A stretch of 31,447 bases of DNA from contig NW_006766903.1 of the NCBI RefSeq assembly GCF_000275845.1, forward strand, positions 488,858-520,304, read 5' to 3'. Both the position numbers and the translations under genes were made by a program. The DNA comes from Dichomitus squalens LYAD-421 SS1 (taxonomy: Eukaryota > Basidiomycota > Agaricomycetes > Polyporales > Polyporaceae). The notes under the pieces are model-generated. The model was not told the origin of the DNA. It saw only the letters and a list, made by a program, of their open reading frames with translations, and made no database searches. Positions 6,022 to 29,824 of the stretch are shown in pieces. Position 1 is the first letter of the stretch. Every line of letters starts with the position of its first letter.

Positions 6022-7605
6022 ATGACCGCAGATCCTCAAGTTGAACAGAAATTGTGAGAGTTTACTTTAGGCGACTTGTGAACGGACACTGATTTCTGGT
6101 CAGCTTATTCATACAGACCTCCCAGGTCTCTTTCATGGGTATGCAATCCAGGATCTATCTAGAGTAAACTGTCTGAGGACTAGTCTACCTTTCCAACAAG
6201 CTCTGTTGCTGTACGAGCTCACTATCACTTTCGGCCGGGAGGTCGATGTAATATGGCGGTCACGCTCAAGCCTACTCACCCTGCTATATTGCTTCAATCG
6301 CTATCCCAGTATCATAAATTCAATCGCATCTGTGGCGCTATTCTTCCCTATGAATGACTCTGTGAGTGGCACTTTTCTGGTCTAGTTTTGTCACTAACAC
6401 CCTAGCTTGGCAGGCGTAAGGTCATATGCACTTTTCCTGAGTACTTACCTGACGCGTCTCCGTAGTTGCCAGGGTATTTCGAGGCTATACAATATCACCA
6501 TGGTATTTCCATACATAACATGGATAGGTAGGTCAATGTGTTTGGCTCGTTTTAGATGTAGTGTAACATCCAACATAATGGATTAGCCTTTTCCGCATTT
6601 CGCGCCTACGCGCTGTCGAATAGAACAATCATAATTGGAATACTAGTTTTGGTATTGAGCTCGGGCTTTGCAGCCCTCACTGTGGTCAGTTCTTATGGTC
6701 TTTTGTTTATTGTGAGTACTCACGGCGAGGCCATCCATAGTGGCAGATAATAGACGCACCAGTTGATGATATGCCGCCTCCGTTCAACTGCTTTTCCCCG
6801 ATCACATTCAACAAACAGATCTCCATTGGGTGAGCCTATAGCTAGAATGATTTCCTAAGCATCATGGCTCATGGAGGTTATATAGTGCGTGTTCCCCTAT
6901 GCAACCAGCAACACGGCTCACATAGCTGCTACTAGCCGATGCGGTAATGAAGGGAGCCTACGTGGTCTGGGAGCTTATCATCATTGCGCTTACTCTCAAA
7001 AGGACTTCTCCGATACTTGTGACTTCCCAGCATCAACCCCCACGAGCGTTGGCAAGCACCCTACTTCAGAATAGTTCGTACTTCATTCTTCCCTGCTTTT
7101 GATGAAAACACTGATGACCTCATGAAGGTGTGATATGCTTCTCGTAAGTAACTGAGTCTTGGCCCCAAGTATTCCAGTAACGGCCCTCACACAGGATTCC
7201 TCTCGTGTTCAACTTGATTGTATTAGTGAATGCTTTTGCAGTGGTAAGTCCTATATCTTGACATCTGTAGCAGACATCGCCAACGCTCATGTTGAATAGA
7301 CGTCTGAAAACGAGAACACCATTCGATCCAGAGTCATGATCATAGTCGGCAACTTGAGAGATCCGTAGGTCCCCTCCTCTCAGCTTCAAATTATATCGGC
7401 TAAATTTTACATTAGTGTGACAGCCATACTCGTCTCACGATTTCTACTCGATCTGGCAGAATACGCTCTTGGGGCCCATGAGAGTAACAATACATGGGCG
7501 AATATTGTGACCAGCGACGTCACCGTACATCCTTCTGACGTGCTCTCAGAGCTTCCTCCGGAGCAACGCAGAATATCGTTACATGTCGCTGCAGGAGAGG
7601 AATGA
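6022..7605 (+). CDS. DUF6533 multi-pass membrane protein, copy A
   Basis: Thirteen exons (6022-6053, 6104-6138, 6201-6361, 6414-6415, 6466-6527, 6587-6684, 6741-6829, 6886-6890, 6936-7073, 7128-7143, 7195-7243, 7300-7364, 7416-7605) give 313 residues. The N-terminal block ALLLYELTITFGRE, then IWRSRSSLLTLLYCFNRYPS, is the fungal DUF6533 signature. Further hydrophobic helices (NITMVFPYITWIAFSAFRAY, IIIGILVLVLSSGFAALTV, VVWELIIIALTLKR) and the AILVSRFLLDL end match the family. Its function is unknown; the architecture suggests an integral membrane protein of about seven helices. Exon 4 is only 2 nt. Exon 8 is only 5 nt here because the donor used in copy B is mutated and the next upstream GT gives the right phase, so this step is the weakest part of the model. 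Exon lengths match copy B at most positions. Confidence 0.8.
6414..6415 (+). other. Predicted 2-nt microexon (GC) of DUF6533 gene A
   Basis: The preceding exon ends in phase 0 (FFPMNDS) and the next exon must be read from its second base (TGC CAG: CQGISRL), so two bases are missing. They are supplied by GC between a 52-nt intron (6362-6413, branch-like CTAAC) and a 50-nt intron (6416-6465, branch-like CTGAC). The spliced codon is GCT (Ala). The same position holds a 2-nt exon in genes B and C. Confidence 0.7.
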
Positions 7606-13343: not shown

Positions 13344-14895
13344 ATGTCTGCGGAATATGCAGAACGGACGATGTAAGCAGACAATACTCAGGTTTCATGT
13401 AACTAGCTATTCACCTTTGATCAGCATCCTCATAGAGGACTACCAAGTCTCCATTGCCGGTTCGTACCCAGCCATCGGATACAAATAGAAGACTGACCAA
13501 AAGGCAATGCGCTTATCAGCTCTGTTGATATACGAGTTCTCGATCACATTCGCTCGAGAATGCAATGCAATATGGGGTTCGCGTCCAGGCTTCTTCACCC
13601 TATTGTTCTTTGTCAACCGCTATGGGACGATCCTAAATGCAGTTGCGTTGTTTGTCCTCTTCTTTCCTATGGAAAACCAGGTAGGGCATCCCTCCTTCGT
13701 CAAGATATCTGACATTCATTCCGTTTGGACAGATGTAGGCATCTTAATGCTCTACTAGAGGCCCTTTCTGACCAATATTATCAGCTGTCAGGTGTTCTCA
13801 AGGTTGCAGGGTGTGTTGATGATCCTTCCGTACCTCTCCTGGATAGGTCAGTCTGTCGCGTTGTCATTCACTGAGCTCACAATACGATCTACGTCCTCGT
13901 GTAGTTTTTTCAGCCTTCCGTGCCTATGCTCTGGCAGATAGGACTTTGTTAATCGGATTCATGGTATTGATTCTAAGCTCGGGCTTCGTAGGCCTGACCA
14001 TCGTGAGCGCAAGAGACATTGAAACGCTTCATGAAGCTCATTATGAGATAATCTCTAGTGGCAGTTAGTGCTTACTTCGGTACAAGACCTGCCGTCTCCA
14101 TTCGATTGTTCTGCATCCATAGTCAACACCAAGCAGCTATCCATTGGGTGAGCCTCTTCCCGAGATCGATGCAACCGCTAGCTGAAAAGGTCTATATTAG
14201 TGCGTTTTTCCCAGGTTCAAACGAGCACTGTACTGAGATCTTTTTTCAGCTGATGTAGTGGTGAGGGGAACATTCATGATCGCAGAGATCATGGTCATTG
14301 TGTTCACGCTCAAGAGAACTTTGAAACTGACCACCCGCCGGAATCGCGGACCTCGGACTTTGATGAGCATAGTCCTTCAGAACAGTCTGTTTTACTCTTC
14401 TCTTCTGTTACTTTAAGCTCAATCAATATTGAACACAGGTGTGCTATGTTTCTCGTGAGTGAACCATCGACAACCCAGATCTTCGCTGATCACCTCCCCG
14501 ACACAGGATTCCCTTCCTATTCAATGCGCTCGTATTGGTCAATTCTCTCACAGTGGTAGGCAGTCACAGTCCAAGTCTAAGCCCCAAAAAGGATAGCTTA
14601 GATTCAGGTGGACAGACTCAAGAGAATCAAGATCAGCTGATATTCAGAGCATTGCTCATAGCGGGCAACTTCAGAGACCCGTACGTATTCTCCGATCGTT
14701 CCTACTCTTGTAGCTGAGCAGACGGCAAGCATCACGTCGATTCTCATCTCGCGCTTCCTCCTCAATCTTGGAGAGCTGTCTCATAGCGATATGTCGACTG
14801 GGGACAGCTTGGGAAATATCATTTCGAGCGACATCACGATGCACCCTTCCGACGTGATATCGCTACATCTGCCCCTGGACCGACCGTCGAGTTGA
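13344..14895 (+). CDS. DUF6533 multi-pass membrane protein, copy B
   Basis: Thirteen exons (13344-13372, 13425-13459, 13520-13680, 13733-13734, 13785-13846, 13914-14002, 14059-14147, 14201-14214, 14250-14384, 14439-14454, 14507-14555, 14616-14680, 14730-14895) give 303 residues with a closed frame. The start MSAEYAERT leads into ILIEDYQVSIA and then the DUF6533 core ALLIYEFSITFARE, IWGSRPGFFTLLFFVNRYG. Later helices include VLMILPYLSWIAFRAYAL, LLIGFMVLILSSGFVGLTI and TFMIAEIMVIVFTLKRT. The protein ends SILISRFLLNLGE plus a short polar tail. All key blocks are intact, so the gene looks functional although its function is unknown. Exons 2, 3, 4, 5, 7, 10, 11 and 12 have exactly the same lengths as in copy A. 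Exon 4 is 2 nt. The 35-nt intron after exon 8 is unusually short and should be checked. Confidence 0.85.
13733..13734 (+). other. Predicted 2-nt microexon (AT) of DUF6533 gene B
   Basis: It lies between a 52-nt intron (13681-13732) and a 50-nt intron (13735-13784), the same lengths as in gene A. It completes the codon ATC (Ile) between FFPMENQ and CQVFSRL. Without it the downstream membrane segment (VLMILPYLSWI) is out of frame. Confidence 0.7.
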
Positions 14896-28168: not shown

Positions 28169-29824
28169 TCATACGGCGCTCCACCCTGTGCGGTGGCTGC
28201 CCTCGGCATCACTGTCGAAATGCCTTCCGTTGTACTCCTCGTCGAGGGAGTGCAGAGATGGTATGTCAGGGGCACTATGCGACCAATCTGTGGTGAGGAA
28301 TCCTTGGTGTTCATCGGTCGCTTCGATTGTGGTCGCATTGAGTTGGGATAGGTCGAGAATAAAGCGCGATAATACTATAGTCACGAGGCTGTCAATTGGC
28401 TCAATCAGCATGGTAAAAGGCGAGACAAGATGGACCGTACTGACGCATCCCTTAATATACCCCAGTTTTCCAACGATATTTTTGAAACAGAAGTTTGCTG
28501 TATGGCGTCTCAGCGTCGTACGTAACATACGATGTTGATAGGGTTGCAGTTGAGCATTATACTCACCAAATCTAAGGGAAAGGATATTGCACTCAAGACC
28601 ACCGTCATGCTGTTTGGTATCGTGAGCGGAAAGACAACGAGGGCAGCCCCAAGCGTACTGACAAGAAGCAGACAAATCCTAAACAAATTCTCTTCAGTCA
28701 CCGGTATAATTTTCTTGCCAGTAGGTACGTACCGTTCTCGAACAGAACGTCGGAAATTAATGCACGCCCCTTTTTCTGTTTTGAACCAAGCCACGCTCCG
28801 TATGTCTTCGTGCAAGTCAGAAATAGAACTACCGACTCGGCGATAATGTTCGCCGTCCGTGTAGCAATCATCACTGAGAACGGTACTCATTCAGTGATGC
28901 AACGAGATAGGCAAAAGTATTCAGTATATTTACTGCGGGGTTTAGGTGTTAGAGAGGATCAGTACATACGATACAGGAACACACTGACCAATCCGTTCGT
29001 AGGTTTATAGCGCTGGTTGTCACCTCTCCCGTACATCTCGGAGGGGTTCCCGAGTAGACTAAGGACATTGTTATCAACTGGAACTGGAGAGCCCAACATG
29101 AGGATAGAGACACGACCGAGGCGAGATTGTTTTACTTACTAGGCTGGGTGCAGCGAATGACGCACTGGAAAGGGACACGAAAAGGCAGACGAGGACGCTC
29201 TTTCCGGAAAGTGCGTATGCTCTCAACCCCAAGAAAGCTGCCAAAGTTCCTGTGTGTCAGACAGTGGGAAGGCGAGGAAGAAATTCAGGAATCGACAGCA
29301 CCTGCCCATCCAAAATACGGAATGATGACAGAAATCGAGCTGATGATATTCAGTGAAGTGCACCTGTTTAGACATATCAGAATTGTATCAAGACTCAGAG
29401 AGGCAGGCATGCCACAGCGCACATCTGCAATTCTTCGGTGAGAAAAGGAGGAGTAGTGATGCCTGAAGAGCACTAACGAGAGAAGAGGCAGAACCGAAGA
29501 CCAAAACCATCAAATTCAGGACGACACTTGCGAGTTGGAGGTGCCGAATGGCCACATATTGTAGAACAGTACGCGTGCCTCTACGAGCCCATATGGAGCT
29601 GAGTTCATGGTCGAACGTTAACAGTGTATCGTATAGCAATAGCGCTGCGATTTAGTGAGTACGCAAGTTCTCTCATGTAACTATCGACCACTCACCTATC
29701 CCGGCGAATGCAAAAGCTAGAGCTAGAAAGCTACCGAGGTCGTCAGTATTGACATGCAGAAACAACTAAGCAAATACCTCTGTTCCGCTTCTTCTGCGGC
29801 CGTAGTGAGCAATGCTGATGGCAT
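28169..29824 (-). CDS. DUF6533 multi-pass membrane protein, copy C
   Basis: Thirteen exons on the minus strand (29778-29824, 29696-29730, 29478-29644, 29423-29424, 29302-29363, 29140-29249, 28989-29083, 28904-28932, 28733-28873, 28663-28678, 28567-28609, 28445-28497, 28169-28388) give 339 residues. The DUF6533 core is GIALLLYDTLLTFDHELSSI followed by WARRG. Further helices include NIISSISVIIPYFGWAGTLA, AFLGLRAYALSGKSVLVCLF and RTANIIAESVVLFLTCTKTY, and the family end VTIVLSRFILDLSQLN is followed by a polar tail. It is clearly more diverged than A and B but has the same exon plan, with exons 2, 4, 5 and 10 (35, 2, 62, 16 nt) unchanged in length. Exon 8 and the 30-nt intron after it are doubtful; an alternative there would change only a few residues. 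Function is unknown. Confidence 0.8.
29423..29424 (-). other. Predicted 2-nt microexon (AT) of DUF6533 gene C
   Basis: It lies between a 53-nt intron (29425-29477) and a 59-nt intron (29364-29422). It completes ATG (Met) before CTSLNIISS. The preceding exon ends in phase 0 (FGSASSL) and the next is read from its second base, exactly as in genes A and B. Confidence 0.65.

Follow-up and report, generated by a model that had tools for sequence, protein, structure and literature searches.

Among the closest described counterparts of the exons reported here are those of plants, where the excerpts of the reports on APC11 (Guo and Liu 2015, PMC4674806) and VPS55 (PMC8831610) describe a constitutive microexon of 1 nt in two gene clusters. 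For filamentous fungi, the abstract of the report on the Trichoderma xlr2 microexon (PMC11121469), an exon of 20 nt that is regulated by glucose, states that no functional microexons had previously been described. The excerpt on the P450 genes of Phanerochaete chrysosporium (PMC1184071) mentions microexons, the shortest with 6 bp, and frequent introns of 45-55 bp. Stwintrons are introduced in the excerpts of two reports (PMC9024468, PMC12403724) as arrangements in which one intron splits the splice signal of another. Among the matches listed from the open-access full-text literature (PMC), the excerpts contained neither a fungal 2-nt exon nor tiny exons of DUF6533 genes. A DUF6533 protein, SNB1, is required for fruiting-body patterning in mushrooms, according to the excerpt of its report (PMC10949477).

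The DUF6533 genes of Dichomitus squalens share features with each of the systems in these excerpts. As for APC11 and VPS55, the proposed exon is shorter than 3 nt, conserved, essential for the frame and overlooked by annotation, and relatives lacking introns keep the bases. However, in this case it comprises 2 nt, often occurs twice per gene, is spread over more than 100 paralogs of a single fungal genome, and was recognized by comparison and not from RNA. Like the xlr2 case, it is a microexon of a filamentous fungus that matters for the frame, and as in P. chrysosporium, likewise a white-rot basidiomycete, small exons lie among frequent introns; the lengths differ, with 20 nt and glucose regulation in the former and at least 6 bp in the latter. 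The likeness to stwintrons is that two short fungal introns would be removed consecutively at almost one site, whereas here two coding bases separate complete introns. The likeness to RS-exon recursive splicing, as presented in the excerpt of PMC6224609, is that the junction contains a 5' splice site once the first exon has been joined; in contrast, here two bases must remain in the mRNA.

The window, i.e. the whole analyzed stretch of 31,447 nucleotides, contains three DUF6533 genes, A, B, and C. All three passed the Pfam cut-off of 24.1 bits for DUF6533 (PF20151), with 47.0, 48.6, and 26.0 bits, respectively. The sites around the tiny exon are as follows:

6201 to 6361, forward strand: exon 3 of gene A, 161 nt, ending in phase 0
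6362 to 6413, forward strand: intron a of gene A, 52 nt, GT-AG
6414 to 6415, forward strand: 2-nt exon GC of gene A, coding for the Ala that precedes the TM3 Cys
6416 to 6465, forward strand: intron b of gene A, 50 nt, GT-AG
6466 to 6527, forward strand: exon 5 of gene A, 62 nt, TM3
13520 to 13680, forward strand: exon 3 of gene B, 161 nt, ending in phase 0
13681 to 13732, forward strand: intron a of gene B, 52 nt, GT-AG
13733 to 13734, forward strand: 2-nt exon AT of gene B, coding for the Ile that precedes the TM3 Cys
13735 to 13784, forward strand: intron b of gene B, 50 nt, GT-AG
13785 to 13846, forward strand: exon 5 of gene B, 62 nt, TM3
29425 to 29477, reverse strand: intron a of gene C, 53 nt, GT-AG
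29423 to 29424, reverse strand: 2-nt exon AT of gene C, coding for the Met that precedes the TM3 Cys
29364 to 29422, reverse strand: intron b of gene C, 59 nt, GT-AG
29302 to 29363, reverse strand: exon 5 of gene C, 62 nt, TM3

An earlier note on this DNA had described these three sites, and base-by-base re-reading found all of its coordinates, intron lengths, and phases correct. Exon 3 ends in phase 0 (in gene A with the peptide FFPMNDS), the following 62-nt exon needs two additional bases, and a single AG-NN-GT per gene supplies them as GC, AT, and AT. The introns have GT-AG borders throughout, as had been claimed. As to the CTRAY-like branch sites, introns a and b of genes A and B and intron b of gene C each contain an exact CTRAY, and intron a of gene C does not. 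In one respect, the solution is not unique: in genes A and B, the frame can also be kept with the two bases omitted, by way of an inner acceptor located 7 nt into the 62-nt exon, at the cost of three residues, one of which is the cysteine. In gene C, there is no in-phase inner acceptor within 24 nt.

The observation of the earlier note thus proved to be correct in the compared sequences, and its spread is far wider than three genes. The DUF6533 genes of this polypore, which are 7TM receptor-like, very probably hold a genuine and old 2-nt coding exon that separates exon 3 from the TM3 exon and, where this could be tested, mostly a further one located between exon 7 and exon 8; both would be handled by intron definition, probably with sequential removal of the neighboring introns. 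What can be read directly from the DNA is the demand of the frame, the presence of AG-NN-GT nearly everywhere it was resolvable, normal-looking introns on both sides, and one-intron copies that retain both bases. The second 2-nt exon, the competing inner acceptor, and in-frame stops further downstream in A and B go beyond the earlier note.

The genome comprises 40.3 Mb in 116 contigs. A search with the DUF6533 profile yielded at least 150 matches (150 of 204 candidates were scored), including A and B. The gene set of 150 consisted of 147 fetched paralogs and A, B, and C; one match near a contig end (C59:928-1047) was left out. A gene was regarded as resolved when it had a phase-0 donor of exon 3, a stop-free 62-nt TM3 exon preceded by AG and followed by GT, and an LRxYAL-like anchor downstream, all of which are independent of the 2-nt exon. 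This applied to 123 of the 150 genes. In 120 of them, the gap between exon 3 and the TM3 exon was at least 85 nt, and three had short gaps (L033, L057, and L101). AG-NN-GT, at least 40 nt from either end, was found in 119 of the 120 resolvable gaps, whereas 100 dinucleotide shuffles of the gaps gave 12.8 on average and 22 at most. In all 119 paralogs, complete GT-AG introns lie on both sides of the microexon. Several AG-NN-GT sites were available in 14 genes, and the site was then picked by its splice-site score. The single exception, L130, has AC followed by GCGAGT and possibly contains a 2-nt exon AC with a GC donor replacing GT.

A relaxed, hand-judged rescan was applied to 31 cases, namely the 27 unresolved genes, the three short-gap genes, and L130. 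It added 13 further 2-nt exons, with the weakest support for L022, L029, and L089, as well as the GC-donor case of L130 and the fused copies L033 and L057; 15 cases stayed unassigned, and four low-scoring candidates among them were not counted. The combined pattern of GT, AG-NN-GT, and AG followed by 62 nt and GT, with intron-like spacing, was searched in the DNA that follows the domain, for the first 90 paralogs; it gave 238 sense matches versus 1 antisense match, counted as matches and not as genes.

Longer exons that would also keep the phase were tried and rejected: lengths of 5, 8, 11, and 14 nt were found in 18, 11, 13, and 11 of the 120 gaps (shuffle means 11.7, 10.8, 10.4, and 8.6), and these counts are within the shuffle maxima of 18, 18, 16, and 18. 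The lengths of 0, 6, 7, and 9 nt exceeded every shuffle (74, 38, 27, and 26 of 120), and all of them are out of phase. Judged by eye, they seem to arise secondarily from AG-AG-GT and from GTNNGT or GTATACAGT-like donors that related copies have in common. The value for 0 nt bears on the idea that a stwintron or a recursive splice site of zero nucleotides is present, with nested introns that are removed in two steps and leave no exonic base. The two adjacent introns of about 50 nt would fit, and so would the AG immediately before GT in 74 of the 120 gaps. However, this excess derives from AG-AG-GT, in which the second AG is the exon, and exon 5 would be out of frame in every resolved gene. Moreover, public protein P0001, which is described below, contains the extra residue. 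The arrangement therefore falls outside the stwintron class, because the frame is kept only if two bases separate the complete introns, and it also differs from a zero-length recursive site (AG directly followed by GT), because two bases have to be retained and NN is other than AG in 51 of 119 genes. We consider this explanation very improbable.

The introns on both sides of the proposed 2-nt exon look like the ordinary neighboring intron. Introns a and b have a median length of 56 nt (5-95% range 49-69), compared to 58 nt (46-71) for intron 5, and CTRAY is present in 50, 56, and 38 of 119 genes for introns a, b, and 5, respectively, with about 13 expected for each. The lengths of introns a and b occupy all three classes modulo 3, and therefore the frame is kept only when both introns are removed. 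Stops are found in intron a of 69 and in intron b of 92 of the 119 genes; together with the length classes, this led to the rejection of in-frame intron retention. An alternative phase-2 donor of exon 3 was likewise rejected: 23 of the 119 genes have no such donor, and in only 1 does it equal or exceed the score of the phase-0 donor.

For genes A and B, the inner acceptor would allow a single intron of 111 or 109 nt (TTGCCAG/GG and CTGTCAG/GTG, with the slash at the splice site), and would make a 2-nt exon superfluous. The frame is preserved in this structure, which is also that of the public model of gene B. On the other hand, it removes three residues including the one that starts TM3, which is a Cys in 85 of 119 genes. 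In-phase inner acceptors within 24 nt occur in just 33 of 119 genes, at +7 in 9 of 119, and in C there is none; in addition, AG-NN-GT in 119 of 120 gaps would be left unexplained. This makes the single long intron improbable for A and B, and the 2-nt exon is preferred for these genes as well.

The dinucleotide of the tiny exon is AG in 68 of 119 genes, GG in 13, GA in 10, and AC, CT, or AT in 6 each, with others in the rest. Ser is the most common encoded residue (69 of 119). A single intron of about 107 nt that ends two bases early, with the AG of the last acceptor being read as exon, would predict this preference, because AG plus N encodes Ser or Arg. It would, however, require a non-AG acceptor nearly everywhere, and the length of about 107 nt is outside the 46-71 nt range of intron 5. 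Furthermore, the residue is Asn in the public protein P0008 and Met in P0016, which cannot arise from AG plus N, and the second junction of P0001 reads K-F where AG would yield K-V. The probability of an early-ending intron is therefore nearly negligible in our judgment.

If the two bases of the 2-nt exon end an exon at a used 5' splice site, they would be expected to pair with U1 and to exchange with position +5. In the NN/GT sites, G is present at +5 in 32 of 35 genes with a non-G at -1, compared to 39 of 84 genes with a G at -1 (p=3e-6). Pooled with the second 2-nt exon, the dependence has p=2e-8. When each of the 36 clusters at 50% identity contributes a single gene, p has a median of 0.026 and reaches 0.27 at most. 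Because the genes are related and the cluster-level p is weaker, we take this relationship as support, not as proof.

Two of the short-gap paralogs serve as natural experiments. L033 lacks the first intron; its exon 3 continues through AA to a phase-2 donor, which is followed by an intron of 47 nt. L057 lacks the second intron; after an intron of 59 nt, AG is joined to the 62-nt exon. Both continue in frame and have kept the two bases.

Public proteins were also inspected. Forty were gathered, the alignment was judged by eye, and DNA was compared only for those matching L048, B, and L103. P0001 from D. squalens is 98% identical to the model of L048 and contains FTLH-S-CAQWAN and STK-F-TVISRS, i.e. 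the residues predicted by both tiny exons. The reading as an old 2-nt exon, which the earlier note had suggested, is supported by this protein together with the two one-intron paralogs and the paralog count. A single residue precedes the TM3 Cys, as predicted, in 8 of the 40 proteins (P0001, P0002, P0008, P0010, P0016, P0021, P0023, and P0025), and 8 others have extra residues at this place (P0003, P0004, P0006, P0012, P0014, P0032, P0034, and P0037). In the remaining 24, the region is missing, otherwise different (P0020), or ambiguous.

The tiny exons are handled inconsistently in public DUF6533 protein models, and the prediction that the family would be misannotated was accurate. P0020, a D. 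squalens protein, was the sole public protein retrieved when gene B served as the query, and it is near-identical to B outside splice differences; together with P0001, it makes D. squalens or a very close relative the probable source of the genome. P0020 omits the 2 nt via the inner acceptor (ENQ/VFSRLQ) and thereby loses the conserved cysteine; it also departs from the family elsewhere and skips the exon-8 stop stretch of B. P0034, the public model that corresponds to paralog L103, retains the complete 60-nt intron a and then uses the donor at the 2-nt exon. P0006 and P0009 seem to have been translated straight through from genomic contigs of other origin. In both, Glu-Val represents codons 19-20 past the exon-3 donor and, with the preceding Ala or Ile codon, these peptides would fit CAG-AG-GT or TAG-AG-GT located one intron further downstream. 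A search with P0001 in genome and viral contig collections retrieved no relative; there were 17 pattern matches in genome contigs, none of which was confirmed. P0001 and the fused paralogs give indirect support for the presence of the tiny exon in the mature mRNA, in contrast to the model of B, which is without it; the public models cited in support may in part have been derived by homology.

The second 2-nt exon was searched for in paralogs other than A, B, and C. Of the 74 full-length paralogs of the strict set, 46 had a TM5 motif with an acceptor at a fixed distance, by which exon 8 could be located. One intron upstream of it, a second AG-NN-GT was found in 44 of the 46, e.g. in L048 and L012, compared to a mean of 4.5 and a maximum of 10 in 200 shuffles. 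In one of the two exceptions, L005, exon 7 reads through both bases to a donor, and the first flanking intron is absent; the other, L075, perhaps has the same fused reading with a less recognizable exon 7. Spliced models with an open frame and both tiny exons were found for 42 of the 46 paralogs; because they were built by requiring an open frame and the phase of the second exon, they show existence and are no independent test. The model of L048, the gene that corresponds to BD311DRAFT_767086, is a single open frame with both 2-nt exons and is broken without them.

In genes A and B, the second 2-nt exon as such was not found. Comparison with L048 places a GT of gene B at the site of the second exon:

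14215 to 14216, forward strand: GT of gene B, seemingly fused to exon 8, with an in-frame TGA after it

In the simplest reading, exon 8 of both genes contains an in-frame stop near the start of TM5, TAG in A (6886-6925) and TGA in B (14215-14236). Because of these stops, the two copies may be damaged, or exon 8 may be spliced otherwise than in this reading. If A and B were decaying pseudogenes, their splice pattern would now be irrelevant, and the stops are what such genes would be expected to carry. Against this, exons 3 to 7 as modelled have identical lengths in A and B (161, 2, 62, 98, and 83 nt) and open frames, and decay of two copies would not account for the pattern in over 100 further paralogs. 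We regard decay of A and B as unlikely, though worth bearing in mind. In the C-terminal half of both genes, a probable exon of 16 nt between GT-AG introns was noticed by eye (7128-7143 in A and 14439-14454 in B).

The AlphaFold2 model of P0001 has seven membrane-type helices in a bundle and a hairpin before TM5, with a mean pLDDT of 79.7. The best match in the PDB was a somatostatin receptor (E 1.4e-4, TM 0.57), and GPCRs are the nearest solved folds. The first tiny exon codes for the residue that precedes Cys83, where TM3 begins, and Cys151 is located within the hairpin preceding TM5. A GPCR-like disulfide between TM3 and ECL2 is likely in this predicted structure. The second tiny exon maps to Lys164-Phe165 near the start of TM5.

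In fungi with short introns, splice sites are thought to pair across introns. If the splice sites of the DUF6533 genes were paired across their introns of about 50 nt, i.e. by intron definition, exon size would not be limiting. Across the two bases, the 3' site of intron a would overlap with the U1 site of intron b and, as two bases cannot seat U1 and the 3'-site factors together, the introns would be removed one after the other; this order is proposed on steric grounds only. At the second 5' splice site, the two bases would double as positions -2 and -1. If the exon were skipped, TM3 would be read in a shifted frame, and the mRNA would probably be directed to decay; when the 2 nt are left out, 66 of 119 genes are predicted to run into a stop within exons 5-6. 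It would be a bolder and rather doubtful step to assume that the spliceosome routinely defines two 2-nt exons per gene by ordered, recursive-like removal across more than 100 receptor genes, and that the order or efficiency of removal gates functional mRNA for each paralog.

Two nucleotides are below the limits of exon definition, and yet such an exon appears to be the norm in a large family, with a second one in 44 of 46 testable genes. More than 100 natural variants in one genome could thus inform on how the spliceosome defines an exon below its own footprint, and the same variants bear on the order of intron removal and on the exon's contribution to the 5' splice site. Public DUF6533 models are possibly wrong around TM3 and TM5 unless tiny exons are allowed when they are built.

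The DUF6533 matches are unevenly spread over the genome: of the 150 listed, contig C14 has 16, C2 has 13, and C32 has 11, and many lie close together, which suggests repeated local duplication. Members of the DUF6534 family were also located in this genome.
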